Assembly (NCBI GenBank): GCA_002842465.1
Contig: PHDA01000001.1
Coordinates: 1 to 64,000, forward strand
DNA length: 64,000 bases
Source of the DNA: Bacteroidetes bacterium HGW-Bacteroidetes-7
GTDB taxonomy: Bacteria; Bacteroidota; Bacteroidia; Bacteroidales; UBA932
Reading direction: 5' to 3'
Shown here one piece after another: positions 1 through 15,674 of the stretch (positions within the stretch are counted from its first letter, which is position 1; each line of letters starts with the position of its first letter). Position numbers and translations under genes: made by a program. Under the pieces are notes generated by a model. The model was not told where the DNA came from. It was given only the letters and a program-made list of their open reading frames with translations, and did no database searches.

Positions 1-1950
1 GAAAAAGCCTTAGACAAAGCCTTAAAAACAGAGTTTAATACCACTGATCCACTATCTCAGCAAATTGTAAAACACAGAATTTCCCATTCAAAAATTTACA
101 TTGAAATTGCAAATTCAAGCAATATAGTTTATACTATTCGAAGAATAATTAATTCAGGAAATATAACTCCAACAGGGAATGATGAAATGACAAAGAAGGT
201 AATCGTATTCAAATCACACTTGGATGAAATCACACCTGAAATTGAACAGTTACCATTGTTTATTCGAAGTACCAATAATAACGCTAATGATTTTGGTTTT
301 TATCATTGGCTTGCTGAATTTATCGGCATAAAACTACCAGAAGTTAATAATATTGGAAAGTCAAATGAAAAAAGTCCATTATATCTTCAAACTATATTTC
401 CGGCACTTTTTATTGAACAAACAAAAGGATGGTCTGAATTTTTAGCTACTTGTCCATATTTTGGAATTCCCAGAAACAAAGAAAAGTCAATTGAATTTTT
501 ACTTGCTCTAAATGAATTATCTATTTCTACTGAAAAAGATAGGATATCAAAAGAAGAAAAAGATTTAAAAGGTAATTGGTCGCAAGTTTTATCTCGGTTA
601 GAAATCCTCGCATCAGAATATCATGCTGAGATTAAAGCTGTACCACTAGAAATTCAGCCAGATAAAGATTTATTAATTACAAGTTCAATAGTGATTCCAG
701 ATGAAGAAGACAAATCAAGATATCAATCAGCAATAGTCCTTAAAAAAACACTTGAAGAACAAATAAATGAATTAAAAAAACTACCAATTAAAAAAGTTGG
801 TGATAATAAAGAATTCATTCGTATAAAACTAGAAAAACTGCAATCTGATCAAAATCAATTTATGTTAAAGTTAGACAACTTTGATCTTAATTTCAATTTA
901 CAAAAACAACAAGAACAAACACTTGAGAAACAGCTTAAAAGTATAATTAAAGAATTATCAAGTCTAAAAGGGATAAAAAATGTTTTTGATGATGTTTTAA
1001 TAAAAGAAAACATATATAGAACATGCCCAACGTGTACTCAAAAAGTATCTACAGATTTAATGGCAAGTGAGGGAGTATCAATAGAGAAGTTGACATTAGA
1101 TGAAAACATTTCTTATTTAGATGGTCAACGAAAAATTATTGAAAGTGCTATCAAATCGCTTTCAATAATTATTGCGGAAAAATTAATTATTAGAAAGTAC
1201 TATCAAAGGACTCAACGTGAATTCGAAGAAGAAATTAAACTTACTCTTCATGAATTGATTTCTGACGATAGAGATTATTCTGAAACAGATACCCTTCAAA
1301 GAGTGAGATTAGAGAAAAAGATAAGTGATTTAGATTTTATACAAAATAGATTTAATGAAAATATAGAACAATTAAGTCTCTTAGCTGATAAATTTAAAAT
1401 ATTGTTAAGTGAAAAAAATGCACTTGAAGGTAATTCAGAAGCCGACAAAAATAAATTAGATGAATTTGAAACAATGTTTAAAGATGATTATTTGTATAAA
1501 TTTGGATATGATAGTAATCCTAAATGGAATATATTTATACAACAAAAAGATCCATTTAAGTATTTTCCAGTTTTTAAATTCCAAGAGGACGACCCAATTC
1601 CAAAATCAATAAGAACAAATTCATCTGCATCTGATTTTGTTCGAACATTATGGGCTTATACATTAACGTTACTTTTAAAAGGAGAAAATCATCCTGGGAT
1701 AGTTATGTTTGATGAGCCAGGCCAACATTCAGTAAAGAGCTCAAGTTTAAAGGCCCTGTTCAAAGCTTCTTCAGAGATAAAAGATAAACAAATTATTATT
1801 TTTACTTCCGTTCAAAAGGATTTATCAACAATTGATGACACAACTGACAAATTGGATATAAATAAGATATTAGAAGGCTTAACAATAGATGTAGATTATA
1901 GTATGTATAAAATTGGAGAAGGGGAAAAATGTATTGATATCCTAAAGTAA
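1..1950 (+). CDS. Rad50/SMC-like coiled-coil ATPase, C-terminal part (5' end outside window)
   Basis: The reading frame is open from base 1, so the ATG at 187 is internal and the true start lies upstream of the window. The visible 649 residues lack a Walker A motif, which should be in the missing N-terminus. The middle is Lys/Glu-rich coiled coil interrupted by a CPTC pair (residues 342-345 from base 1) that resembles a zinc hook. Near the end a SxSDFVRT segment (about residue 543) is in the signature-motif position, followed by a Walker B-like VMFDEPGQ (D571, E572). This layout is that of Rad50-type ABC ATPases found in anti-phage systems, such as the ATPase of ABC three-component systems. 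The family call is from motifs; the precise system cannot be named because the partners would be upstream. Confidence 0.7.
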   Translation, partial: EKALDKALKTEFNTTDPLSQQIVKHRISHSKIYIEIANSSNIVYTIRRIINSGNITPTGNDEMTKKVIVFKSHLDEITPEIEQLPLFIRSTNNNANDFGFYHWLAEFIGIKLPEVNNIGKSNEKSPLYLQTIFPALFIEQTKGWSEFLATCPYFGIPRNKEKSIEFLLALNELSISTEKDRISKEEKDLKGNWSQVLSRLEILASEYHAEIKAVPLEIQPDKDLLITSSIVIPDEEDKSRYQSAIVLKKTLEEQINELKKLPIKKVGDNKEFIRIKLEKLQSDQNQFMLKLDNFDLNFNLQKQQEQTLEKQLKSIIKELSSLKGIKNVFDDVLIKENIYRTCPTCTQKVSTDLMASEGVSIEKLTLDENISYLDGQRKIIESAIKSLSIIIAEKLIIRKYYQRTQREFEEEIKLTLHELISDDRDYSETDTLQRVRLEKKISDLDFIQNRFNENIEQLSLLADKFKILLSEKNALEGNSEADKNKLDEFETMFKDDYLYKFGYDSNPKWNIFIQQKDPFKYFPVFKFQEDDPIPKSIRTNSSASDFVRTLWAYTLTLLLKGENHPGIVMFDEPGQHSVKSSSLKALFKASSEIKDKQIIIFTSVQKDLSTIDDTTDKLDINKILEGLTIDVDYSMYKIGEGEKCIDILK

Positions 1951-2144: not shown

Positions 2145-3920
2145 ATGAAAATTACAATTAAGCAAAAATATAAGTCTATAAATCCTCCATGTGATTTTGA
2201 ATTACCAGATTTCTCAGTATTAACTGGTAGAAATGGAAGTGGCAAAACTCATTTATTAGAGGCAATATTAAACAAAGACAAATCCGATGTCAATATAAAT
2301 GGTGAAATTAAACGGAACATTAGATACATACCTTTTAATGGTCTAAATCCATACATTCAAGAAACCTGTGACCCAAATTCTATAACTCAACAGATAAAAA
2401 ATATTTGGAATCAATATAATAGCGCAAGACAAAACTCAACAAGAATACCTCAAGATTCAAATATGCAAAATCTCCTACGACATATAGGAGATGAGAATGC
2501 GAAAAGGTTAATTGAAAAGACAATAAATGAAACACACAAAGAGTTTGATAAATTAACTGAAGATGATTTGTCTGACAATTTCGATATTTCATTTATGGGA
2601 CAAAATGATTTTTTCACAGCTCAATTTGCCTTAATTTTTAAAAACTATCATAAAAGACAGGAAGAAAACAATATAAATGAATACTATGTTTCGAAGGGAC
2701 AAATTCCAACAAAACCAGTATTGTCAAAGCAAGAATTTGAAGACAAATTTGGAACACCACCTTGGGATTTTGTAAATAAAATTTTGTTTGAAACTAATAT
2801 TCCATATGAAGTTAATAGCCCAATAGGTACAAGAATTGAATCCAACTTCAATTTCAAATTAAAAGACCGAACTGCAGGTTTTGAAATTAGTTCTGCTGAC
2901 TTATCGACGGGTGAAAAAGTTCTAATGTCTTTAGCATTAGCAATATATAACACTGGAGGCGATGTTGGAAAACCAGATTTATTATTGTTAGATGAACCTG
3001 ATGCTGGTTTACATCCTTCTCTGTCTCAAAAAATGGTTGATGTTTTAAATAAAAATATTGTCATTGAAAATAAGATCCCAACAATAATTACAACACATTC
3101 ACCAACAACAGTAATTGCTTCAAAAGGAGTATCAATATATCAATTAATACGAGGCAATAATATTCCAACAAAAGTCTCAACACAAGAGGCTGTTGAAATA
3201 TTATCTTGTGATATTCCTTTTTTAAAAATATCTACGGATAAAAGAAGACAGGTCTTTGTGGAAAGCAAATATGATGTACAATATTACGAACAGCTATTAA
3301 ATATTTTTTCAAGGTTTGTTTCATTTAATGCGGAACCTATTTTTATTCCTGCAAGAACTTCAAATGGTTCAAATTGCACAGATGTTATAGAAGTAGTAAA
3401 GAATTTATCAGACAATGGTAATGACCAAATTTTTGGAGTAATTGATTGGGATTTAGTTAATAACTCTAATGGTCGCATTATAGTTTTAGGTGAAAACAAA
3501 AGGTATGCTATTGAAAACTATTTGCTTGACCCACTTTTAATGGGTTTGTTGTTTATTAGAGAAACAAAAATAAATATTGCAGATTTTATTGGTCTTTCAA
3601 TTAATAATTATGGACAAGTCGCAAACCTTACTATTGGTGATGCCCAAATAATAATAGATAAAGTATTGTTGGACTTAAATTTAAATACAGGTAATAATTT
3701 ACAATATTCGACAATTAATAATTGGAATTTAATTATAAATGAGTCGTTTTTAAAACACCAAGGACATGATTTGGAAACTCTTTACAAATCAAAATATCCT
3801 TTCTTAAATATTTATCAAAGAGAGGATAGTTTGAAAAAGGATATTATAAATAAGGTAATTAATGATTTCCCTGATTTTACATCTAAAGACTTATTAGAAA
3901 CAATGTTGAAAATAAAATAA
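2145..3920 (+). CDS. OLD-like AAA/ABC ATPase with C-terminal TOPRIM-like (DUF4435-like) domain
   Basis: A 591-residue protein. The N-terminal ABC-type ATPase has Walker A GRNGSGKT (residues 28-35), signature LSTGEK (253-258), Walker B LLLLDEPDAGLHP (D283, E284) and an H-loop TTHSP (H318). From about residue 368 a second domain begins with VFVESKYD (E373), then IDWD (D434, D436) and YAIENYLL. That is the Glu...Asp-x-Asp arrangement of TOPRIM-type nucleases as in the OLD family, or of the related DUF4435. Such proteins act alone or with a helicase partner in phage defence. No PtuB-like HNH or UvrD-like partner gene is adjacent, so this one looks stand-alone. Its spacers carry inverted ends (2101-2110 and 3922-3931), suggesting it moves as one module. 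A nuclease activity is inference. Confidence 0.75.
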   Translation: MKITIKQKYKSINPPCDFELPDFSVLTGRNGSGKTHLLEAILNKDKSDVNINGEIKRNIRYIPFNGLNPYIQETCDPNSITQQIKNIWNQYNSARQNSTRIPQDSNMQNLLRHIGDENAKRLIEKTINETHKEFDKLTEDDLSDNFDISFMGQNDFFTAQFALIFKNYHKRQEENNINEYYVSKGQIPTKPVLSKQEFEDKFGTPPWDFVNKILFETNIPYEVNSPIGTRIESNFNFKLKDRTAGFEISSADLSTGEKVLMSLALAIYNTGGDVGKPDLLLLDEPDAGLHPSLSQKMVDVLNKNIVIENKIPTIITTHSPTTVIASKGVSIYQLIRGNNIPTKVSTQEAVEILSCDIPFLKISTDKRRQVFVESKYDVQYYEQLLNIFSRFVSFNAEPIFIPARTSNGSNCTDVIEVVKNLSDNGNDQIFGVIDWDLVNNSNGRIIVLGENKRYAIENYLLDPLLMGLLFIRETKINIADFIGLSINNYGQVANLTIGDAQIIIDKVLLDLNLNTGNNLQYSTINNWNLIINESFLKHQGHDLETLYKSKYPFLNIYQREDSLKKDIINKVINDFPDFTSKDLLETMLKIK

Positions 3921-3962: not shown

Positions 3963-5072
3963 GTGCAAACAGACTTTACTAAAATATTGCTTGACTTCAA
4001 ATCAATTCCACGACATAAGCGGACAAAGACGTTTATGGAAATTTCTGGTTACCCTCATTACGAAAATGTCTGTAGCAATATCTTGAAATTCTATCTTGAC
4101 CCTACAAACGAACACGGTCTAAATGACTTAGTTCTAAATTCATTGTTGCATCTTATTGACATAAACTTTCAGTTTGACACTGAATTTGAACAAATTGATA
4201 TTTTTCGAGAACATCGAACGATTAATGATAACAGGCTTGACTTACTAATACTAACTGAGAATTACGCAATCGGAATTGAGAATAAAATATTTCATCATTT
4301 ACATAACGACCTAACAGATTACAAAAACACTGTAAAATCATACTGTTACAATTCAAGAAAACCAATTTACATAGTTTTATCGCTTAACAAATTAACTACT
4401 AACGAAGAAATGGAAAAGGTGAACGAAAATGACTTTGTCAATGTGACATATGAGCAGGTTTTTCAGAACATAAAACAAAATATTGGCAGACACTTAAATA
4501 GTTCAAATATCAGCTACATAAACCACTTGACAGACTTTATAAAATCAATTGAAAATCTTACACCCAAGACTATGGAGAATAAGGTACTATGGACATTTTT
4601 CAAAAACAATACCGAGACAATTCAGGAGTTGACGGTTAGCTTTAATGAATACAAGAACTCACTTTATCAAAAAATCTATCAGCTTAACGATACTCTACCG
4701 CTAAATGAATTTGCCCCAACAGTTGACCGACAATGGATATATGAGGGCTGTTGCCTAGTCCACGACTACACAATTAATTCAAAATATAAATTAGCAATAG
4801 ATACATCCATTGACATTAGCGGTTGGAAAATTCAGTTATTTGGACGTAATAGTCAATCAACTGATTTCATCTTTAATGTAATGTGCAAGGACAATGATTT
4901 TTTGCCACAACCTTTTGATAGTTATGAACGAGGCGAAAGGCTTATTTATCAAAAATTTGACACCGACATCGACATGTCTACTGTTGCAAAAACATTAACT
5001 GACTTGCTGAAAAGAATCGAGAATTATAAACAGCGGACAGATGATCATAACGTCATTTTACACGGGTTTTGA
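3963..5072 (+). CDS. PD-(D/E)XK nuclease superfamily protein (PDDEXK_4-like)
   Basis: A 369-residue protein starting at GTG; no better ATG exists before the conserved region. The N-terminus has the YENVCSNILKF...LDP...EHG pattern of the PDDEXK_4 family. A putative catalytic core follows: D93 in RLDLLI and E106-N-K108 in GIENKI, that is Asp-x(12)-Glu-x-Lys. The C-terminal 180 residues (after about 190) are not recognised and may bind the target. These proteins are common single genes in bacterial defence islands; the role as a restriction-type nuclease is inferred from fold motifs and location. It lies between two spacers with repeat character and has no close operon partner: 42 nt after the upstream gene and 131 nt before the next. 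Confidence 0.75.
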   Translation: MQTDFTKILLDFKSIPRHKRTKTFMEISGYPHYENVCSNILKFYLDPTNEHGLNDLVLNSLLHLIDINFQFDTEFEQIDIFREHRTINDNRLDLLILTENYAIGIENKIFHHLHNDLTDYKNTVKSYCYNSRKPIYIVLSLNKLTTNEEMEKVNENDFVNVTYEQVFQNIKQNIGRHLNSSNISYINHLTDFIKSIENLTPKTMENKVLWTFFKNNTETIQELTVSFNEYKNSLYQKIYQLNDTLPLNEFAPTVDRQWIYEGCCLVHDYTINSKYKLAIDTSIDISGWKIQLFGRNSQSTDFIFNVMCKDNDFLPQPFDSYERGERLIYQKFDTDIDMSTVAKTLTDLLKRIENYKQRTDDHNVILHGF

Positions 5073-5962: not shown

Positions 5963-6199
5963 ATGAATTATAGATTAGAAAATAACAATCCCGCAGATTT
6001 TGAAAGGTTAGTGAATTCTATCTGTCAAAAGATTTCAGGAACAGGAGTTGTTGAATTTTCACCAGGAAAAGATGGAGGACGAGATGGGAAATTTACCGGT
6101 ACTGCTCAAAATTTCCCTTCTACAAAAGATAGTTGGTCTGGTAAATTTATAATCCGAGCGAAACTGTTCAATGTCATTAGACGATCTCATATTAATTAA
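5963..6199 (+). pseudogene. Truncated N-terminus of a restriction-endonuclease-like protein
   Basis: Only 78 codons remain. Residues 1-67 look like the start of a PD-(D/E)XK nuclease-like protein: an N-terminal FERLVNSICQKI helix, the KDGGRDG motif (residues 36-42) that supplies the catalytic Asp, and WSGKFIIRAK (about 58-67) at the (E/Q)-x-K strand. The frame then runs into 11 unrelated residues and stops, so the body of the enzyme is missing, and the usual Gln/Glu before A-K appears as Arg. From memory, similar N-termini occur in effector nucleases of ABC three-component systems; this was not checked. The break lies about 100 bp upstream of the methyltransferase operon and probably marks a recombination scar. 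Confidence 0.6.
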
Positions 6200-6293
6200 T
6201 TTTCCTGTTACATGACAACAAAAAATGCCTTTTTAATTATATGGAAATTCCTCACTATAAATTCAATAATAGGAACTCATCTGAAAAAATGAT

Positions 6294-7640
6294 ATGAGAA
6301 AACTAACTTTTATTGATTTATTTGCTGGGCTTGGCGGTTTTCACTTAGCACTTGAACAACTTGGATGTAAATGTGTCTTTGCTTCAGAAATCAAAGAAGA
6401 CTTACGACATCTTTATAATATAAATTTTCCGGACACTCAAATTTACGGCGATATAACTCGTATTTATCCAGAAGATATTCCTCCTCATGATATTTTATGT
6501 GCCGGTTTTCCGTGTCAACCATTTAGCCAGGCAGGCAAGCGACAAGGTTTTAATGATGAAAAAGAAAGAGGAAATCTCTTTGATAACATTTGTGCAATCC
6601 TTGAAATTCACAGACCAGAATATGTTTTACTTGAAAATGTGTCAAATCTTAAAGGGCACGATCATGGGAATACATGGAGAACGATAAAATCCAAGCTCGA
6701 AGCACTTAATTACGAGGTTTTTGAACCAAAAATTCTTTCCCCTCACGAATTTGGTATTCCACAACACCGTCGTCGTATCTATATAGTATGCAGAAATAAG
6801 GACTTTGGAACACTTGATGGCTTTTCATTTCCAACAACCCGCCCGATGCAATGCGATATAAATAAGATTATAGATACAAATGAAGTTCAAATTCAAAAAC
6901 TAAAACCGGAATCTCGCAATCAACTTGCTATTTGGCAAGAATTTATTGATCTGACAATTCAAAATGGAGATACACTCCCTTCATTTCCAATTTGGTCTAT
7001 GGAGTTCGGTGCAAACTATAAATTTGAGGCAACACCACCCGCATTTCAGAATTTAGAAGATTTGGTTGGTAGTAGGGGAAAGTTAGGTCAAAAAGTTACT
7101 GGAACTACCGTGGCTGAGTGTTTAAGTCACCTACCAAATTACGCATATAAAGATAAAAATAAAGTGTTCCCACAATGGAAAATTAGATATATCCGTCAGA
7201 ATAGAGAATTCTACAATAGGCATAAATCATGGTTAGATAGTTGGATTGAAAAAGTAAAAAATTTTGATAATAGTCATTTGAAAATGGAATGGAATTGCGG
7301 TAAAGATGCAGAGCCTACTATTGAAAATAAGATTATCCAATTCAGAGCGTCAGGGATTCGTGTAAAAATGCCGTCATTTTCTCCTGCATTAAATCTAATC
7401 AGCACTCAAATACCTATTTTTCCTTGGTTGCCGCTCCCTAAAGAAGCACTAAATGAGGGTGAACCAGATAAAGGAAGATATATGACTCTTAAAGAAGCCT
7501 CAAAATTGCAAGGCATGCAAGATTTGAAGTTCGGAGACAACAACTTCACTCTTTCACAAGGACGTTCATTTGAGGCACTTGGTAATGCTGTGAATGTAAC
7601 AATCATTAAGCATATTGTAAAAAAACTACTCAAGTTATGA
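6294..7640 (+). CDS. DNA (cytosine-5)-methyltransferase
   Basis: A 448-residue C5 methylase that transfers a methyl group from S-adenosylmethionine to cytosine in DNA. The motif order is classical: motif I DLFAGLGG (8-15), motif IV GFPCQPFS with catalytic C74, motif VI ENV (E114), motif VIII QHRRR (157-161) and motif X GNAVNV near the C-terminus. The target-recognition region (about 200-370) is unlike anything I can assign. ATG 6294 is chosen because the ATG six bases upstream is closed by a stop. The stop overlaps the next start (ATGA at 7637-7640), so it is translationally coupled to the GHKL gene. It probably marks host DNA against the nucleases encoded downstream. Confidence 0.95.
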   Translation: MRKLTFIDLFAGLGGFHLALEQLGCKCVFASEIKEDLRHLYNINFPDTQIYGDITRIYPEDIPPHDILCAGFPCQPFSQAGKRQGFNDEKERGNLFDNICAILEIHRPEYVLLENVSNLKGHDHGNTWRTIKSKLEALNYEVFEPKILSPHEFGIPQHRRRIYIVCRNKDFGTLDGFSFPTTRPMQCDINKIIDTNEVQIQKLKPESRNQLAIWQEFIDLTIQNGDTLPSFPIWSMEFGANYKFEATPPAFQNLEDLVGSRGKLGQKVTGTTVAECLSHLPNYAYKDKNKVFPQWKIRYIRQNREFYNRHKSWLDSWIEKVKNFDNSHLKMEWNCGKDAEPTIENKIIQFRASGIRVKMPSFSPALNLISTQIPIFPWLPLPKEALNEGEPDKGRYMTLKEASKLQGMQDLKFGDNNFTLSQGRSFEALGNAVNVTIIKHIVKKLLKL

Positions 7641-9181
7641 GCGATAATATAATAGACACTGTCAGCATAACAATTGGCACAACGATGTATGGTAGATTTG
7701 AGGACCTTCCAAATACCACTTCACACATATTAGCCGAATTTATTGATAATGCATTACAATCGTATAGGGACAACAAAACTAAATTGGAAAATCTTGAAGA
7801 AGATTACAAACTAAAAGTAACAATTGATATTGATTGGGATAAAGCAGATAATAGAGCAAAAACAATTGTTATTACTGATAATGCAGCAGGTATAGCGAAA
7901 GATAAGTATGTCAGTGCATTTATGCCCGCCCTAACACCCGAGAACAACAAAGGATTAAATGAATTCGGGATGGGATTAAAAACCGCTGCATGTTGGCTTG
8001 GTGAATCATGGACAGTAAAAACAAAAGCTCTAAATGAAGATGTTGAAAGAACTGTATCTTTCAATCTAAATGAAGTTATTGCTAACGATTTAGAAGAACT
8101 GCCTGTAGAAACCTCTTCTAAGGGAATCAATGAACACTACACCATAATTACTACAACAGACTCCACAAAAAATGTTCCGGCTTATAAAAGCATTTCAAAG
8201 ATTAAGACTGAACTTGCAAGTATTTATAGAAAATCATTGAGAGAAAAAGAGATGATAATCAAGGTGTGCGGTGAAGAGTTAGCTTTTGAAGAATATGAGA
8301 TTCTGACTGCACCGTTAAATAGAACACCTAATTCACCCCCTATTTATTGGAAAAAAGAAATTGATTTCAAATTTGGTAAGTATAGGGCAAAAGGCTTTAT
8401 TGGTATTTTAAGAGATATTAATAGCACACAAAACGGCTTTGTGTTATTACGTCGCGGGCGTGTTATAGTCGGGGCAGAAACAGATGGTCGATATTTCCCA
8501 AAATGTTTATCTGGGTCAACAGGTACATTTCGATATAAACGTTTATTTGGGGAACTTGAATTAGACGGATTTGATGTTTCTTTTAACAAGAATGACATAC
8601 AAGATAAAGAGAATCTTGATGCTTTAATGGAAGCTCTCAAAGGGGAAATACATACCAAAGAATTTGATTTATACAATCAAGCAGAAGAATACCGTCTTGA
8701 TGATACAAGAAAGCATGTAAAGAAAATAGTTACAAAATACAACTCCTCCCCTAAAGACAACCGGAGTATCATTTCAATTGACAATTTTGCAAATAATGAA
8801 GTTGTTCAATCAAACACTGAATCGACAAAATCTGAGGTAGCCAACGAACCAACTGGAACAGATCTTATGCCAGTCGTAATAGGGGAGTATGGTGCAACTT
8901 ATAAAATAAAGGATAAAAATTATACGCTAAAAGTTCAATTTGTTGAGTCAGGTAATGATTTATTTTGGGTAGATGTCAGACAAAAAAACGAGAATATTAT
9001 CATTTGTCAAATAAATACAAAACATATTTTCTTTCAGTATTTTGGCAAACCAAGCGAGTCAAACATAGCAATTTTAAAGACTTTGGCAATTGCCAAATTT
9101 ACAGCGCGTGAGTCCGGCCAAGATAGTGCTACGGATTTATTCAATTTTTTTAATGAATATATCAAAAAGACAAAAGTTTAA
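7637..9181 (+). CDS. MutL/MORC-like GHKL ATPase of restriction-modification locus
   Basis: A 514-residue GHKL ATPase, not a sensor kinase: no His-box or membrane segment. The N box is EFIDNALQS (E34, N38), G1 is DNAAGI (from D81), and G2 is FGMGLKTAA (about 110-118). After it comes a second domain with LRRGRVIVG and an FNKNDI segment (about residue 317) corresponding to the conserved lysine of MutL/Hsp90-type transducer domains. Dimeric ATP-gated clamps of this type were predicted to work with Z1-type helicases and a methylase in restriction systems, and are thought to be ancestral relatives of eukaryotic MORC proteins. The gene starts inside the methylase stop codon and is 3 nt from the Z1 gene, so all three are co-transcribed. 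Confidence 0.9.
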   Translation: MSDNIIDTVSITIGTTMYGRFEDLPNTTSHILAEFIDNALQSYRDNKTKLENLEEDYKLKVTIDIDWDKADNRAKTIVITDNAAGIAKDKYVSAFMPALTPENNKGLNEFGMGLKTAACWLGESWTVKTKALNEDVERTVSFNLNEVIANDLEELPVETSSKGINEHYTIITTTDSTKNVPAYKSISKIKTELASIYRKSLREKEMIIKVCGEELAFEEYEILTAPLNRTPNSPPIYWKKEIDFKFGKYRAKGFIGILRDINSTQNGFVLLRRGRVIVGAETDGRYFPKCLSGSTGTFRYKRLFGELELDGFDVSFNKNDIQDKENLDALMEALKGEIHTKEFDLYNQAEEYRLDDTRKHVKKIVTKYNSSPKDNRSIISIDNFANNEVVQSNTESTKSEVANEPTGTDLMPVVIGEYGATYKIKDKNYTLKVQFVESGNDLFWVDVRQKNENIIICQINTKHIFFQYFGKPSESNIAILKTLAIAKFTARESGQDSATDLFNFFNEYIKKTKV

Positions 9182-9184
9182 ATT

Positions 9185-11512
9185 ATGCAACAAATTATTA
9201 TAGATAAATCAACTGAACCAGCTACTGCATTAAAGTTTGCACTTCAAAAAGTCACCTGTGGTAACTTTTTTGAAACTTTTATCGAATCACAGAAACAAGG
9301 GTATCAAAGAACTGATGGTTCAATAAGAAAAAAGGGCATCACAATTAATGGAGCTGTTAATCTTAGAGAAGAAACAGCCAATATCCTTGCACATTGTAAT
9401 CCGCATGATGCAATTTCAAATCCGGAAACTACTCATCTTGTCGTTGGTTATGTTCAAAGTGGAAAAACTTTATCTTTCACAGGTCTTTCCGCTCTTGCTT
9501 TAGATAATGGTTATCGTGTAATTGTTTTTCTTGCCGGCACAAAGAACAACCTATTAAGTCAAACTTCAAAAAGATTGCGTAAAGACTTGATTGGAGTTTC
9601 ATCTGCAAATAATGATTATTTTAAAATTCATTCAAATCCTACAATTAAAGTAATGGAGGAATTGATTGGGCATATTGAATCTTCAGATAAGCCAATCATT
9701 CTTATTCCAATCTTAAAACACTACAAACATATTAATCAACTTTCAGAGGTATTTAAAAGCAATGACTTCAAAGATGTGATGTATGATGAGACTGTTCTTA
9801 TTGTTGATGATGAGGCTGATCAGGCTTCATTAAATAGTTTCGGTCGGAAAAATAGTCAAAATGCAGAAAATGAGGAGTTGGAAGAATCAAAAACTTATGA
9901 ATCCATTTTAAAACTTCGGGCAGCACTTCCTGGTAACACTTATATTCAATATACGGCAACTCCACAGGCAAATATTTTGATAAGTATGCAAGACCTTCTT
10001 TCGCCCAAAAGTCATACCTTACTAACACCTGGCGAGGGATATGTTGGAGGAAAACTATTCTTTGGCAAAGATGGACCGAATCATGACTTGTTTAACGGTG
10101 GTTTGATAAAACAGATACCGGACAATCAGGTATTTCACAAGAGGAGAAATCCTTTAAAAAAAATACCACAATCACTTAAGGACGCTCTTATGCTACACAT
10201 AATGGCAGTTGCTATTGTAGTCAAATTTCTAAAAGTTGATGACGTCTCATATCTTTCAATGATGGTTCACCCAGACAATACAAAGCCGTGTAATAAAAAA
10301 TTCAAAGAATGGATCGAAAAGGAACTTCGAAATTGGCGATTGGCTTTAAAAAAACCAGATGGTCAAGATGACAAAGAAGCGATTTTGGATCGCTTTAAAG
10401 AACTTTTTCCTATGGCGATTGAATATTACTCAGAGGATGAGCGTCCAACTTTCGAACAAATTAAACGATTCATTCCTGACATTATTAACGACCGAAAAGT
10501 ATGGCTTGTCAATACTGATGAAGATGCAGAAACTGAAATAGAGGGGGATAATTACAAAATGCATATTCTTGTTGGTGCTGAAATGCTAAATCGTGGTTTT
10601 ACCGTTGAGAAGTTGGCAACTACTTATATGCCTCGCTATTCTGTTGGTCCAACAAATGCAGATACAATTCAGCAACGTTGTAGATTTTTTGGATACAAAC
10701 AAGATTATATAAAATCTTGTCGTGTGTTTTTGCCAAGTTGGTCTGTAACTAATTACATTGATTATGTTAAACATGAAGAAGAACTCCGATCTACTTTGGC
10801 AAGTTGTGATACTTTGGCTGCCGCTGAACGGAAAATTCTACTTTCACCCAATTTAAGACCAACAAAACAAAACGTACTTCCTATTTCAGTTGTGAATACC
10901 AAGTTAAAAGGAATGCGAGGAATGCAAGCATTTGAAAGTAAATCTTTGATCGAAGAAAATGATAATCTGGTTAGGTCATTTTTACAAAAGCATGAGTCTT
11001 CTTTTAATATCTTGTATGAATACTCCACTCTCGACCGTACACACAGAGGTTTTAAACTACCTATTGACGATGCAATTAGCTTTCTAAATGACTTCCGTTT
11101 TGGGAACTTTTTGGATGCACGACGTAAAGCCGATACTATTCGTTATTTGCGATATTTATCAAGTGAGGATAATGAGAGCCCATTGACGTTTGTCTATTTT
11201 ATCCAAATGGCATATCAAGCCCCAATTAGACGCCGTAAATTTGATTTTGATAATTTGAAATTGTCAGTTGAAACTGATTTATTTGCTGGTCCAAGTTCTG
11301 CAACTGATTCTACTGACTACCCAGGTGATAGAAAAATTGTTGGAGAGGACTCTATAACTTTTCAATTGTATCATTTCCATTTAGAAAGTGCACCGCTTGA
11401 CTTTGCTCATGAAGCTTACACAATAGCAATCAACTATCCGGCTTCATTAGCTGCTAATTATTGCTCAAATGAAGAATCTAAACAAGAAGATGATTTAGAA
11501 GATGATGAATAA
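9185..11512 (+). CDS. Z1-domain superfamily II ATPase/helicase
   Basis: A 775-residue SF2-type ATPase with a Z1 domain. Motif I is GYVQSGKT (88-95, K94), motif II VDDEAD (D208-D212), motif III YTATPQAN (about 256), motif V MLNRGFTV (467-474) and motif VI IQQRCRFFGY (about 493). Z1 proteins are DNA-translocating or remodelling partners of MutL/MORC-like ATPases in predicted restriction systems. The C-terminus is acidic (ends in a run of Asp/Glu) and overlaps the next gene by 11 nt. It is located between the GHKL ATPase and the DUF4420 nuclease, the order expected from known loci. It is presumably the motor that couples target recognition to cleavage; this is inference from the family. Confidence 0.92.
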   Translation: MQQIIIDKSTEPATALKFALQKVTCGNFFETFIESQKQGYQRTDGSIRKKGITINGAVNLREETANILAHCNPHDAISNPETTHLVVGYVQSGKTLSFTGLSALALDNGYRVIVFLAGTKNNLLSQTSKRLRKDLIGVSSANNDYFKIHSNPTIKVMEELIGHIESSDKPIILIPILKHYKHINQLSEVFKSNDFKDVMYDETVLIVDDEADQASLNSFGRKNSQNAENEELEESKTYESILKLRAALPGNTYIQYTATPQANILISMQDLLSPKSHTLLTPGEGYVGGKLFFGKDGPNHDLFNGGLIKQIPDNQVFHKRRNPLKKIPQSLKDALMLHIMAVAIVVKFLKVDDVSYLSMMVHPDNTKPCNKKFKEWIEKELRNWRLALKKPDGQDDKEAILDRFKELFPMAIEYYSEDERPTFEQIKRFIPDIINDRKVWLVNTDEDAETEIEGDNYKMHILVGAEMLNRGFTVEKLATTYMPRYSVGPTNADTIQQRCRFFGYKQDYIKSCRVFLPSWSVTNYIDYVKHEEELRSTLASCDTLAAAERKILLSPNLRPTKQNVLPISVVNTKLKGMRGMQAFESKSLIEENDNLVRSFLQKHESSFNILYEYSTLDRTHRGFKLPIDDAISFLNDFRFGNFLDARRKADTIRYLRYLSSEDNESPLTFVYFIQMAYQAPIRRRKFDFDNLKLSVETDLFAGPSSATDSTDYPGDRKIVGEDSITFQLYHFHLESAPLDFAHEAYTIAINYPASLAANYCSNEESKQEDDLEDDE

Positions 11513-12530
11513 AAAAGCAAACTATAATATGGAAAGTAACGCTATTTTTTCTCAATTTAAGAACCTCGTAAAATCTACAACTAATAATGAGGCATTTGAT
11601 GTGATTTCTATCAGTGATTTACCTCATAAATTGGGTGTTTCTTGCGAAGGATTTCCAAAATTTTTTGTTTCAACAAACAATTCAATTTCCTCTACTCAAA
11701 ATATCATTCGGGAAATGCTATCTGTTGAGTACAATTTACCATGTTTCATAGTTGAAAATGGAGATGTAAAGCAAAAAGACTGTTTCTCGGTTATTACTTT
11801 AAGAACTAATGATGTTTCACTTCAAGCATATTTCATTGAAATTTTTTTAATGATGCTCCAAAAAATCTCAAAGGAGCCTTCACGAAGAGAACTTTCAATT
11901 GAAGTTGAGAACCTAATTACTATTTTCTCCACTTTAACCAAACCCCCAAGACAAAAGTTACAGGGTTTATGGGCTGAACTGCTAATAATTGAACGAAGTC
12001 TGCACCCGGAAACATTAATTAATGCATGGCATAATTCGCCAGCTGCAAAATATGACTTTACGCTTGGTCGTGACAAAATAGAGGTTAAAAGTACTTCGTC
12101 AGAAGAACGTGTACACCATTTTTCACTTGACCAACTTAACCCTTCCCCAAATTCTCGTTTGCTGATAGCGTCTTTAATTGTTCGAGAATCTGGTCAAGGA
12201 AGTGGAGGGCTTTCTGTTCGGGATCTTTACGAACGTATATGTAGAAGAGTTACTGCAATTAGTGCTCGTTTGCAACTATATACAATTATGGCCGAAACTA
12301 TTGGAAGTGACTTAGCAAAACTCGACAATACATTTTTCGATTATACAGAAGCCTCTGATACACTTTCTTTTTATGATTCTAATGATGTACCACACATTGA
12401 TAAAACAGCTGTACCCCAATTTGTTTCTGAGGTGAAGTTCTCGAGCAATTTGTCTCATTTGATAGATATACAAAATACACTTTCTACTTTCGACTGCTCA
12501 AATAGTCCTTTATATAAAAGTTTATTTTAA
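11502..12530 (+). CDS. PD-(D/E)XK motif protein (DUF4420)
   Basis: A 342-residue protein whose central part carries an intact nuclease core: E159 in GLWAEL, D185 in KYDF and E194-V-K196 in DKIEVKST. This Glu...Asp...Glu-x-Lys order is that of PD-(D/E)XK restriction nucleases and matches the DUF4420 family that accompanies Z1 and GHKL genes. It is the most likely DNA-cutting subunit. The ATG at 11502 overlaps the Z1 coding end; an internal ATG at 11529 (MESNAIF) is a plausible alternative that would leave a 16-nt gap. The next gene follows after 13 nt. Confidence 0.88.
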   Translation: MMNKKANYNMESNAIFSQFKNLVKSTTNNEAFDVISISDLPHKLGVSCEGFPKFFVSTNNSISSTQNIIREMLSVEYNLPCFIVENGDVKQKDCFSVITLRTNDVSLQAYFIEIFLMMLQKISKEPSRRELSIEVENLITIFSTLTKPPRQKLQGLWAELLIIERSLHPETLINAWHNSPAAKYDFTLGRDKIEVKSTSSEERVHHFSLDQLNPSPNSRLLIASLIVRESGQGSGGLSVRDLYERICRRVTAISARLQLYTIMAETIGSDLAKLDNTFFDYTEASDTLSFYDSNDVPHIDKTAVPQFVSEVKFSSNLSHLIDIQNTLSTFDCSNSPLYKSLF

Positions 12531-12543
12531 TTAGTTCAAAAGT

Positions 12544-14772
12544 ATGGTAATTGAAAAAAAAGACAAGGAAGAATTAAAGAAACTCTTTGATGAGGCATTA
12601 TCTAATTCTGCCACATTCAAACATATTGAAGGTGTAAACCCAAGTCGTATAATCTTTGACGGTGTTGAATACCACATATTTATCAAAAACTTATCTCCAG
12701 CCCAACTATCTAACGGCAATCCAAATATATGGAGAATTCAATTACCGATACGTGAAGTTTTTGAACATATAAAAGAATCAACACTTCCATTTATCTTACT
12801 TGGATATGATTCAGAAAATGATGTTTATACTACTTGGAATCCTCATTGGGCAAAACAACGTCTTAATGTTGCGAAAAGTGCTTCGTTTTATTCTCGCTTA
12901 AACATTCAGAAAGAAGCACGAATCACAAATCAGTTACAACATCTTGAATTAAATAATGATGGTGAACTAATTGCATTTCCACGTGAAAAAATTGCTTATT
13001 ATCTTGTGAATTTAAAAATATTCTTTCCAGAGTTGTCTGATTATGTTGCGGTAGGCTCTCGAAAAAGAACAGAAGCAAATGAAGCATACAAAAAACTTAC
13101 AGATTCGAAAAACATACCTGACTTTGCTCATTATTTGGCTCATTTAGGCTTTTTGGACAAAACCATAAGTAATTATTGCCATGCTATTAAAAATCTTATA
13201 AATGACAGCATTATTTCCCGTAATCGTAAGATTTTTTTGGCGTATGATTCTATTACTGAATACCCAAAAGCCGTTCCTGCATTTTTGGAAATTCCAGAGG
13301 TAAAAGCTATGGACATTTCTTGGAATAATACTTATTCGGCTGCTTTAACAAAATATATTGATTTTTTAATGGAGATATGCAATGTAAACACTCGGGAGAC
13401 TGTAATTACAACCCCGGAAATAATTGAAACCAATGAAACTTTTAATTATTTCTGTAACACATATTATTTAGGCAATTTCATGGGCTATTTGTGGGGGAAG
13501 GAATTGAGTGAAAGAAGCATTAGTACATATACCAATGCAATTTACAAACTTATTAACAAAGGTTACATACAGCACTATGCAGAGGTTTTTCTAAAATATA
13601 CCAGAATTAAAGACTATTTTAATGCTATTGAGACATTCCTTTCAATACCGGAAATTAGTGAGTTAAATCAGAACTGGAAATCTGTTTTTTCGGTAGCATT
13701 AAATCATTATGTGCATTTTCTTATTGAATGGCAAGATATTAATAACAAGCATACTATCAATTATTCAGAACAAGCAACTTCTGACTTTGCTAAAGAAAGT
13801 AAAAGTTTCGAAAATGAATTACAATCAGAAACTAACACAAATGAGGTAATTCCTGAAACAGATTGGGAAGAGTCTTTTTTGGATATTGAGAACAAACTAA
13901 CTCGGATTGCTAACCCTGCATTAATTGATTTACTTCGAACATATTTGGATACTGAATATAAATCCCCGGCAAGCGCATTTAATATTATTGAAGATTTTTA
14001 TGGGAATCGTTTCCCCTCAATGCAGATGAAAGATTGGCAAAAATTATTTGAGAAAATTGATTGGAGCAATCCATATTACTTCCCTTCTTTGGTTGCCGTA
14101 CCCGAAGGGAAAAAGAAATCACATATTTTGAGGGTAACTTACCTGGATGGTAAAATCATTCAGGAAAGAGTTGTAGCTAAAACACTTGTAGAAGTCGTTC
14201 GTAGCGCTAACCCCGAGCAAATTTCGTCATTAAATATACTGTTAGCTGGTGTTAATCTTGTATCTAAAGAAATATCTGAGAAATACGAAAAATGTCAAAT
14301 ACCAATTCAAGATGGATATTATGTGATGACACTTTCTGATACTCCCAAAAAATATCAGATTATTAAAATGATCTCTGACGCTCTTCATTTAAATCTAAAT
14401 GTAGAGTTTATTTCAAATGACGATTCTGACCAACCTCAAGCAGTTCCGGTTCCTTATGTAGTACCTATTCAATCCAGAACAAAAATACGAGTTACATTCC
14501 CTGATGGTAGAATTATTCAAGAAGGCAGAGTTAGCAATACCCTAATTGAAGTTGTAAAGTTTGCTGGTGCCCAAAATGTAAGAAACCTAAATATCTCAAT
14601 CAACAATGACAATCTTGTGTCCAACAAAGTAACTCCTACATACGAAAACTCTTTAAAACCAGTAGGGAATGATTTATTTGTACACACTAATAGTTCTACA
14701 CAAACTAAATTCGCTCAGATTCAGCAAATTTCAGCCGAACTTAATTTGGGGCTTTTAGTAGAAATAAAATAA
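12544..14772 (+). CDS. Multidomain protein with two kinds of internal duplication, restriction locus
   Basis: A 742-residue protein of no family I can name with certainty. Residues 1-150 form one domain (motifs FDGVEYHIFIKNLSP, RIQLPI, FILLGYD, TWNPHWAKQRLN) that could be a DNA- or modified-base-reading fold. Residues 197-277 and 315-395 are a pair of about 80-aa repeats, period 118: each has a (S/T)ISxYxxAIxxLI helix, then FLxIPE, then W-x-x-x-(Y/F)SxALxxYxxFL. The helix order is reminiscent of the core-binding (SAM-like) domain of tyrosine recombinases. Residues 526-626 and 646-742 are a second pair, each starting with RVT(Y/F)xDGxIIQE and TL(I/V)EVV, and ending on a conserved LxLxVE. No nuclease or ATPase motif is evident. 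Location, 13 nt after DUF4420, makes it part of the operon, most likely a target-recognition or adaptor subunit. Confidence 0.65.
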   Translation: MVIEKKDKEELKKLFDEALSNSATFKHIEGVNPSRIIFDGVEYHIFIKNLSPAQLSNGNPNIWRIQLPIREVFEHIKESTLPFILLGYDSENDVYTTWNPHWAKQRLNVAKSASFYSRLNIQKEARITNQLQHLELNNDGELIAFPREKIAYYLVNLKIFFPELSDYVAVGSRKRTEANEAYKKLTDSKNIPDFAHYLAHLGFLDKTISNYCHAIKNLINDSIISRNRKIFLAYDSITEYPKAVPAFLEIPEVKAMDISWNNTYSAALTKYIDFLMEICNVNTRETVITTPEIIETNETFNYFCNTYYLGNFMGYLWGKELSERSISTYTNAIYKLINKGYIQHYAEVFLKYTRIKDYFNAIETFLSIPEISELNQNWKSVFSVALNHYVHFLIEWQDINNKHTINYSEQATSDFAKESKSFENELQSETNTNEVIPETDWEESFLDIENKLTRIANPALIDLLRTYLDTEYKSPASAFNIIEDFYGNRFPSMQMKDWQKLFEKIDWSNPYYFPSLVAVPEGKKKSHILRVTYLDGKIIQERVVAKTLVEVVRSANPEQISSLNILLAGVNLVSKEISEKYEKCQIPIQDGYYVMTLSDTPKKYQIIKMISDALHLNLNVEFISNDDSDQPQAVPVPYVVPIQSRTKIRVTFPDGRIIQEGRVSNTLIEVVKFAGAQNVRNLNISINNDNLVSNKVTPTYENSLKPVGNDLFVHTNSSTQTKFAQIQQISAELNLGLLVEIK
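14119..14769 (+). repeat. Tandem duplicated C-terminal domain in the 742-aa protein
   Basis: Two roughly 100-codon units, 14119-14424 and 14479-14769, encode the same pattern: basic start, RVT-x-x-DG-x-IIQE, a TL-x-EVV helix, L-N-I strand, LVS, a K-rich helix and a terminal L-x-L-x-VE. Identity between the two is moderate, so the duplication is old. I recall similar units at the C-termini of other restriction-locus proteins but could not check. Confidence 0.7.
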
Positions 14773-14933
14773 TAGCTTATTTACAATAATACACTATACA
14801 AGGATATAAATGTCTCTTCGAATTTTCAACATTTGAGCTGTTCGAAAAATGGTAGTAGGTGACATTTAGGGGGTCCGACAATCCAAAAGCATTAAAATTC
14901 TATTCAGTATAAACAATTTTAATAAGTCTACTC

Positions 14934-15674
14934 ATGAGCAGCAAAAATTCAAATATTGACAGATTATTAAAATCCGTTGGAATAGAAACCTTTATTAAAT
15001 ATTTTAACCAGTTTCAAACTTTGAACAGCTCTGAGTTGAAAATGCTTTTTGATAAAGAAAATGAAAATTGGAAACACACTAGCAAATCTACAAAAGCTAG
15101 TGTAGGTAAAAGAATTTTTAATGAAGGAAGAGAAGTTGAAGCATTGGAGCATATTATTTTCACAAAGAATGAAATATTAATTCCAAATATCAATGAAGTA
15201 ATGCAACATGCACAGTTGATATATAAAAACTATATTGATAATAATATTGAAAAATTTGAAACTATTTCCTCATATGAAAAAATGGTAATAGTAAAATACA
15301 GGCTTCAACAAGGGATATTTAGAACTAATTTACTCCGTCATTGGAAAGGCTGCTCTGTAACTGGTTGTAAAAATAGTTCTCTTTTAATTGCATCACACAT
15401 CAAACCATTTTCTGAATCAGTTGACAATGAAAAGTATGATGTATATAACGGCTTATTGCTCGCCCCCAATTACGATAAACTTTTTGACAATTTTCTTATT
15501 TCTTTTAATGAAGCAGGCGAGATTTTAGTTTCAAAGCAACTCGATAAGAGTGATTTAGAAAGTTTAAGCATAACCGGAAAGGAAAAATTACGGATGGAAA
15601 AAGTAACGGAATCAACCCAAAAATATCTTGAATATCACCGAAGAAAATTCGAAATGAATGAACTAATTAATTAG
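14934..15674 (+). CDS. HNH endonuclease (HNH_2-like)
   Basis: A 246-residue protein. The C-terminal half carries the HNH_2 signature: zinc-binding CSVTGC (C140, C145), ASHIKPF with H155, then NGLLLAPNYDKLFDNFL, with the Asn and the final Asp/His-position residues in the usual spacing. The N-terminal 130 residues are helical and unassigned. HNH_2 proteins are common as restriction-type nucleases and often recognise modified DNA. A 161-nt gap separates it from the 742-aa gene, so it may be transcribed alone, but it is on the same strand and is the last gene before the composition changes. It may be a second effector of the same locus or an independent type IV-like enzyme. Confidence 0.8.
   Translation: MSSKNSNIDRLLKSVGIETFIKYFNQFQTLNSSELKMLFDKENENWKHTSKSTKASVGKRIFNEGREVEALEHIIFTKNEILIPNINEVMQHAQLIYKNYIDNNIEKFETISSYEKMVIVKYRLQQGIFRTNLLRHWKGCSVTGCKNSSLLIASHIKPFSESVDNEKYDVYNGLLLAPNYDKLFDNFLISFNEAGEILVSKQLDKSDLESLSITGKEKLRMEKVTESTQKYLEYHRRKFEMNELIN

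Follow-up and report, generated by a model that had tools for sequence, protein, structure and literature searches.

The third type of MORC/paraMORC operon (Iyer, Abhiman and Aravind 2008, PMC2292703) is made up of a C5 methylase, a MORC-type GHKL ATPase, a Z1-type superfamily 2 ATPase and a restriction endonuclease-fold protein of the E-D-ExK kind, with the helicase carrying a C-terminal DThhQXuRhFG motif. The same four kinds of gene are found in a stretch of 64,000 nucleotides of Bacteroidetes bacterium HGW-Bacteroidetes-7 (GenBank assembly GCA_002842465.1, contig PHDA01000001.1, positions 1 to 64,000, forward strand; the whole stretch is called the window below). They are followed by a gene for a 742-amino acid (aa) protein of the MTaX1 family and by an HNH nuclease gene. 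For the MORC/paraMORC operons, the available text gives no description of the domains of a fifth protein, and a figure legend names only the uncharacterised domains X1-X3 and AIPR.

Several other systems are comparable. A putative defence system (Nat Commun 2022 13:5731, PMC9523054) has the same three core genes, for Z1, DUF4420 and a C5 methylase, with a core Z1 protein of about 925 aa compared with 775 aa in the window. Its type II, in which AIPR is present, probably corresponds to the loci with a long Z1 described below; MTaX1 proteins might or might not be part of its six-gene type I. MZA (mzaABCDE), compared using the NCBIfam and PADLOC models and PMC9523054, shares the gene order GHKL-Z1-DUF4420 and a distant sequence similarity, but the window operon includes a C5 methylase and MTaX1, and neither AIPR nor a sigma factor was seen in it. 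The ATP-dependent restriction-modification systems CglI and NgoAVII (PMC4267653) likewise rely on a Z1-domain ATPase, which cannot do without a distinct protein for reading the DNA. In those systems a single protein (B3 + PLD) combines reader and nuclease, whereas in the window MTaX1 and DUF4420 would divide these roles and a MORC ATPase is added. Finally, the MTaX1 family (PF20296) has been proposed to discriminate modified DNA (PMC10853773). The window protein shares this domain family and the methylase context, but the available passage of that paper mentions neither its integrase-like and SeqA-like repeats nor a Z1/MORC operon.

We consider it rather probable that the window contains a five-gene ATP-dependent restriction-modification-type defence operon in which the MTaX1 protein would be the reader, Z1 the motor, the MORC ATPase the clamp and DUF4420 the cutter. 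The five genes are intact, tightly spaced, under purifying selection and conserved as a unit in Bacteroidota. The GHKL start overlaps the methylase stop by 4 nucleotides (nt), GHKL and Z1 are separated by 3 nt, Z1 and DUF4420 overlap by 11 nt and the 742-aa gene follows after 13 nt. The gap from there to the HNH gene is 161 nt, which places the HNH gene outside the tight block. Compared with the nearest relative (L017, labelled as a Paludibacter jiangxiensis metagenome-assembled genome), whose proteins are 72-87% identical to those of the window, the five genes have ratios of non-synonymous to synonymous divergence (dN/dS) of 0.043-0.101; with dS at 1.2-2.0, near saturation, these values are rough. 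Such low ratios indicate that the five open reading frames (ORFs) are not due to chance. The original prediction, which placed six ORFs at these positions, with overlaps or gaps of at most 13 nt among the first four, and read all catalytic motifs as intact, is borne out in each of these respects. Its assignment of those four genes to the MORC-linked restriction architecture of 2008 also stands on the Pfam matches, the located motifs and the MORC motif given below. The 742-aa protein, which it left without a family, has a clear Pfam MTaX1 match (residues 42-154, 68.9 bits against a gathering cut-off of 25).

The 742-aa protein truly belongs to the operon as its fifth component. We scanned the genomes of 84,980 species with an alignment of four homologues and obtained 14 loci, with one more from viral contigs. 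The MTaX1 gene lies directly 3' of DUF4420 in all 15 (14/14 in genomes, 1/1 in a viral contig), and each of the 15 homologues matches Pfam MTaX1 at E <= 0.01. All five genes are visible in 13/15 loci; the exceptions are L022, which is cut by a contig end, and L029 (Capnocytophaga canis), a decayed mosaic that contains a Piwi-domain gene. No MTaX1 homologue was found on plasmids (tblastn at 1e-5). Because the 15 loci had been chosen by MTaX1, the search was repeated using DUF4420 (E <= 0.001). This gave matches in 15 of 395 genomes of the phylum and 13 of 199 of the host family, the window's genome being in both sets. Loci with a short Z1 occurred in six genomes (G000, G423, G450, G567, G104, G109), four of them with MTaX1; without the window, the count is three of five, and these three correspond to L022, L028 and L030. 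Loci with a long Z1 occurred in 19 genomes, of which 17 have AIPR, two have neither gene and none has MTaX1. This tally leaves out two family genomes, G433 (L100, L101) and G579 (L102), in which no Z1 is visible. As a separate observation, positions 4076-10705 of L029 carry a methylase piece, a Piwi-domain protein (1.3e-17) and a piece of the Z1 end, followed by DUF4420 and MTaX1.

MTaX1 fills the slot that AIPR holds in a sister, MZA-like Z1 clade. Pfam identified AIPR in four loci, and a profile derived from those four was used for the remainder. AIPR and MTaX1 occur together in none of the 37 loci with a Z1 match, within the stretch fetched for each. In a Z1 tree of 35 rows, which gave long-branch warnings for several and from which L022 and L029 were left out (their Z1 pieces being just 320 and 128 aa long), all 14 MTaX1-linked proteins lie on one side of a branch (96/98) and all 17 AIPR-linked proteins on one side of another (97/99). 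The four loci with neither gene sit at the base of each side.

The MZA system was reportedly described by Gao et al. in 2020. That the window operon is an MZA system whose AIPR has been replaced would account for the shared order GHKL-Z1-DUF4420-fifth gene and for the weak matches to the MzaC and MzaD models, yet we regard it as very improbable. The NCBIfam scores are far below their cut-offs (MzaB 11.1/850, MzaC 136.9/1500 and MzaD 24/420 bits), the fifth gene is MTaX1 with no AIPR (MzaE) match, and the window Z1 belongs to a separate clade, while the AIPR-clade Z1 of L063 matches MzaC at 6.8e-177. The PADLOC models place the window Z1 closer to Helicase_II (2.4e-53) than to MzaC (4.4e-27). 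A plain MZA system was rejected because of the scores under cut-off and the lack of AIPR.

MTaX1 is also a portable partner of methylases. Of the remaining four MTaX1 genomes of the phylum survey, two have it fused to HNH_2 (L007, L010), one has a GmrSD_N fusion (L008) and one carries it next to an HNH_2 frame (L009); in each a DNA methylase adjoins MTaX1 or sits one frame away. At positions 7743-15590 of L010, the MTaX1-HNH fusion has an Eco57I-type methylase and a PLD-SNF2 helicase as neighbours, which makes this another restriction cassette with MTaX1.

The methylase, MORC-type GHKL, Z1 and DUF4420 genes form an intact restriction-modification-like core of the kind predicted in 2008. Motif positions were located by script: PCQPFS, ENV and GNAV in the methylase; EFIDNA, DNAAG and GMGLKTA in GHKL; the Walker motifs GYVQSGKT (at 88) and VDDEAD (at 207) in Z1; and WAELLIIE, YDF and IEVK (E-D-ExK) in DUF4420. 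Their functional roles we take to be those usually assigned to them, and we also take the methylase of CglI and NgoAVII to be of the C5 type. The window methylase scores 236 bits with TIGR00675 (dcm; cut-off 100.65). A Z1 profile compared with the Protein Data Bank (PDB) sequences gave no match at E <= 1. The window GHKL carries the motif GhXhhpXXRhl at 267-277 (S5 motif, GFVLLRRGRVI), described as MORC-specific by Iyer et al. (2008, PMC2292703). It is present in 10 of 14 GHKL proteins, the window counted, and in none of the other components (0/15, 0/16, 0/16 and 0/16). This motif, together with the joint presence of a Z1-type superfamily 2 ATPase and an E-D-ExK protein, corresponds to the type-3 MORC operon. 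As a side observation, the methylases of L020 and L021 are 95-97% identical by segment compared with 59% for GHKL and 74% for Z1, a contrast that suggests recombination at the methylase/GHKL border.

Table 1. Genes of the locus and predicted parts of the MTaX1 protein (window coordinates)
Feature	Position	Strand	Extent	Remarks
C5 methylase	6294..7640	+	448 aa	Predicted self-marking enzyme; Pfam DNA_methylase 5.9e-69
MORC-type GHKL ATPase	7637..9181	+	514 aa	Predicted DNA clamp/looping ATPase; Pfam HATPase_c_3 8.8e-13
Z1-domain superfamily 2 ATPase	9185..11512	+	775 aa	Short-Z1 clade (tree); predicted motor; Pfam Z1 1.6e-32
DUF4420 PD-(D/E)XK protein	11502..12530	+	342 aa	E-D-ExK intact; predicted nuclease; Pfam DUF4420 5.5e-32
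MTaX1 protein	12544..14772	+	742 aa	Predicted reader of DNA or modification state; Pfam MTaX1 6.7e-19
MTaX1 domain, predicted PD-(D/E)XK-like fold	12544..13038	+	aa 1-165	R64-x-Q66 at expected ExK place
Two helical repeats like tyrosine-recombinase core-binding domain	13066..13749	+	aa about 175-282, 294-402	
Small helical domain	13876..14079	+	aa about 445-512	Kept even in shortest homologues
Two SeqA-like repeats	14110..14769	+		14110-14424 and 14470-14769
HNH_2 nuclease	14934..15674	+	246 aa	Probably a neighbour outside the operon; Pfam HNH_2 6e-13

The MTaX1 protein probably serves as the DNA reader of the operon. In the AlphaFold2 model its first domain suggests a PD-(D/E)XK-like fold without the usual catalytic residues. 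VIA-align was used as a second-look aligner; since best Z scores of 7-8 are common as background, its matches count as leads. Residues 4-165 align with the RecU-like 1y1o (Z 8.0, rmsd 3.3, 126 aligned) and with the SPARDA nuclease subunit 9qbp_C (Z 8.0, rmsd 3.7, 123 aligned), both at a Z near background; archaeal Hjc, DpnI and EcoRV follow at lower Z, and the rows there mostly have the PD-(D/E)XK fold. The catalytic motif D...(D/E)xK was not found in the MTaX1 domains: E42 occurs in 11/16, and R64-x-Q66 stands at the ExK place (inferred from strand order rather than from a residue-level structure alignment) in 16/16, including the two HNH_2 fusions and the GmrSD_N fusion. Among the helical repeats, residues 305-397 resemble the archaeal Xer recombinase 4a8e (Z 6.8, rmsd 3.0, 75 aligned) and also lambda integrase. 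Pfam Phage_int_SAM_5 matches 6/15 homologues at E <= 0.01 (best 9.6e-6), the window match being 20.9 bits, below the cut-off of 22.3. In the small helical domain, Y486, M493 and W498 are invariant in 15/15 (alignments A1 and A2). Comparing the MTaX1 profile with the PDB sequences gave no match at E <= 10, and the sole PDB match of the full 742-aa profile, a Gag polyprotein (E 0.52), was taken as chance.

These folds also bear on another assignment of roles, in which the effector nuclease is the MTaX1 protein, R-x-Q forming an unusual active site, and DUF4420 and Z1 are sensor and motor. The predicted likeness to RecU, Hjc, DpnI, EcoRV and the SPARDA nuclease subunit would fit, as would the strong conservation of the polar residues R64, Q66, N49, S114 and N138. 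We nonetheless think it unlikely: E-x-K is absent from the expected place in 16/16 sequences, in relatives MTaX1 comes fused to HNH_2 or GmrSD_N, which are nuclease or nuclease-system domains in their own right, and DUF4420 retains its own E-D-ExK. MTaX1 as a canonical nuclease was rejected, since R-x-Q replaces ExK.

The C-terminal repeats of the protein are likely to be related to the DNA-binding domain of SeqA, an E. coli protein that recognises hemimethylated DNA just after replication, as judged from several weak but agreeing lines of profile and model comparison. One repeat was folded alone (pLDDT 92.6, pTM 0.84). With VIA, four SeqA entries come first for this model (Z 7.1, 7.0, 6.7 and 5.9; next 4.4), all below 8, and residues 533-622 of the whole-protein model align with SeqA 1lrr (Z 7.1, rmsd 2.7, 89 aligned). 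Foldseek places SeqA third for the single repeat (E 0.33, prob 0.93, TMq 0.60), and one of the rows above it is an aminohydrolase (prob 0.15, TMq 0.30). A profile of the repeats (alignment A3, 20 repeats from 12 proteins, without L031 and without L028-L030, which have no repeats) was compared with seven SeqA sequences using hhalign (prob 89.8, P 1.8e-6). This pairs T-N-S-x-T-x-x-K of the repeat with T149-N150-T151-N152-T153-x-x-K156 of SeqA. In the controls the SeqA C-domain scores 37.7, compared with at most 21.3 for 300 column shuffles of that domain, 9.4 for the reversed profile and at most 23.4 for 46 windows from the other proteins of the operon. Against 177,635 PDB sequences, the first four matches of the repeat profile are SeqA, each at E 0.34-0.48. 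Pfam SeqA (PF03925) was not matched above its cut-off in the six repeats compared (15.1 and 12.2 of 25.5 bits in two, nothing in four). In contrast with the SeqA C-terminal domain, whose fold they are predicted to share and whose T-N-x-x-T-x-x-K loop they carry, the window repeats are in tandem, fused to MTaX1 and found in Bacteroidota, and no SeqA N-terminal oligomerisation domain was seen.

Reading of a GATC-like site by the repeats is unlikely. SeqA contacts GATC through Arg116, Thr117, Arg118, Asn150 and Asn152 (PMC6225831). The equivalents of T149, T153 and K156 are present in 20/20 repeats, but that of Asn150 is N in 11/20, C in seven and L in two, that of Asn152 is N in 1/20, and the Arg116-Arg118 loop falls outside the profile alignment. 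On these comparisons we grade the relationship as likely and, the contact residues being poorly kept, GATC-like reading as unlikely.

Two uses of the repeats can be considered. In the first, the tandem repeats, whether derived from SeqA or convergent, would tell hemimethylated self from unmethylated foreign DNA and so decide whether Z1, MORC and DUF4420 fire, the module being reused in GmrSD and AIPR-helicase cassettes; we offer this as a tentative possibility. In the second, which we find doubtful, they would select no target and serve self-protection, holding hemimethylated sites behind the replication fork and keeping restriction off new host DNA until it is methylated. SeqA itself sequesters hemimethylated DNA (PMC6225831), the repeats have a predicted SeqA fold and its loop motif, and they are optional add-ons to a constant MTaX1 part, all of which would suit such a role. 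It is opposed by the poorly kept contact residues listed above, by the specificity of SeqA for N6-methyladenine when the enzyme of the operon is a C5 methylase, and by the three of 15 MTaX1 proteins without repeats.

The A3 profile matches 9/199 genomes of the family and 4/296 of the phylum (the window's in both). No SeqA was found in the phage collection. Among the ten A3 loci opened, L118 encodes a GmrSD protein with SeqA-like repeats, L124 has consecutive genes for AIPR, a SeqA-like protein and a helicase, and in L125 AIPR adjoins a SeqA-like gene; L115 was left out of the SeqA alignment because of stop codons. SeqA-like domains in restriction systems were not reported among the matches listed in the literature searched, from which subscription papers were mostly absent. 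The SeqA link and the MTaX1/AIPR exchange were likewise not found in the available portions of that literature.

For the operon as a whole, we infer the following division of labour among the five proteins, whose anatomy and conservation are those observed above. The C5 methylase would mark self DNA. The MTaX1 protein would use its PD-(D/E)XK-like domain together with the integrase-type and SeqA-like repeats to dock on DNA, and would sense sites without the self mark or with only one strand marked, thus reading DNA or its methylation state for motor and nuclease. Its binding would switch on the Z1 ATPase for translocation or remodelling, as N.CglI does for R.CglI. In CglI the R-protein reads the site, the Z1 N-protein then hydrolyses ATP and cleavage follows, the Z1 ATPase acting only with its DNA-reading partner (PMC4267653). 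The MORC ATPase may clamp or loop DNA between the recognition and cleavage sites, a role proposed by Iyer et al. (PMC2292703), and DUF4420 would cut. MTaX1 would do for the short-Z1 clade whatever AIPR does for its MZA-like sister.

A number of observations weigh against this assignment. The four-gene core occurs without MTaX1 in L074, L076 and a Rathayibacter plasmid (L132), so that MTaX1 is not required by every such core. The fold matches of the MTaX1 protein are middling (Z 8.0 and less), and Foldseek with the whole 742-aa model gave no PDB match at E <= 0.001. With a pLDDT of 81.7 but a pTM of 0.33, single domains of the model are trusted and their mutual arrangement is not. In alignment A2 (the homologues without L031), the MTaX1 and small helical domains are constant while the repeats between and after them vary: the number of integrase-like repeats differs, and SeqA-like repeats, one or two in 12/15 homologues, are absent from the other three (L028-L030). 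Parts that are missing or variable cannot be the common reader, which leaves the MTaX1 and small helical domains as the constant part. In addition, the methylase target domains of L018-L021 are 90-95% identical, compared with only 45-90% for the MTaX1 repeats, a divergence pattern that does not look like matched methylase/MTaX1 specificity; co-variation of the methylase target domain with parts of MTaX1 was tested and is unsupported.

In restriction, dealing with host DNA that replication has just made hemimethylated is usually taken to be the task of the methylase. An operon with SeqA-like repeats would, if these are a true reader, put a dedicated reader inside the restriction machine, and post-replication self-recognition would thereby be testable with one protein. 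MTaX1 and AIPR also appear to be exchangeable counterparts, each combined with a conserved engine of Z1, MORC and DUF4420, and this provides the poorly understood AIPR with a comparison partner.

The HNH gene of the window is probably an independent neighbour. The original prediction regarded it as an extension of the locus and proposed co-occurrence as a check: the 742-aa gene passed it in 15/15 loci, while no HNH homologue was found in any of the 15 (tblastn, E <= 1e-3; downstream sequence of at least 3.6 kb visible in 10/15, 1.05 kb in L024 and 389-720 bases in the other four). Membership of the operon was rejected on this count. Matches occur in 13/199 genomes of the host family including the window's, all others being partial, with the match confined to the HNH part (32-44%) or to an N-terminal segment; the five inspected lie in a different gene context. 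Among plasmid records there are 83 matches of <60% identity, and in the three opened no annotated methylase or Z1 gene adjoins, the annotation being incomplete. In viral contigs there are eight pattern matches, none of them a relative. Scans for promoters (55 compared with 48.5 +/- 7.6 in shuffles) and terminators (5 compared with 5.6 +/- 2.3) are no richer than shuffles and give no decision on a promoter of its own. A six-gene system with the HNH enzyme as effector would be in keeping with the MTaX1-HNH fusions elsewhere (L007, L010) and with a Hymenobacter plasmid (L133), in which a different HNH_2 protein (293 aa, with 33% identity in the HNH domain) comes immediately after the Z1 frames of a related operon and leans toward membership. 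However, the GHKL and Z1 frames of that copy are split, and together with the 161-nt gap, the absence from the 15 loci and the partial family matches, this makes such a system improbable. In L133 the HNH_2 gene stands where DUF4420 would be, an HEPN gene on the opposite strand follows it, and an MTaX1-GmrSD_N fusion, likewise opposite, lies 19 nt beyond HEPN.

Upstream of the operon, a gene open at the contig start (window 1-1950) matches Lamassu LmuB in its part 187-1947 (PADLOC 4.4e-52); an LmuA partner, if there is one, would be encoded outside the contig. It is followed by an AAA ATPase with AriA / ATPase-Toprim-like PADLOC matches (2145-3920, best 2e-21), a PDDEXK_4 protein matching the PADLOC candidate PDC-S26 (3963-5072, 3.3e-116) and a short, early-ending frame (5964-6200) that by eye resembles the start of a restriction-endonuclease-type gene. 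The first 20,000 nt of the window have a G+C content of 0.28-0.37 compared with mostly about 0.40 elsewhere in it, and this beginning of the contig resembles a defence island.

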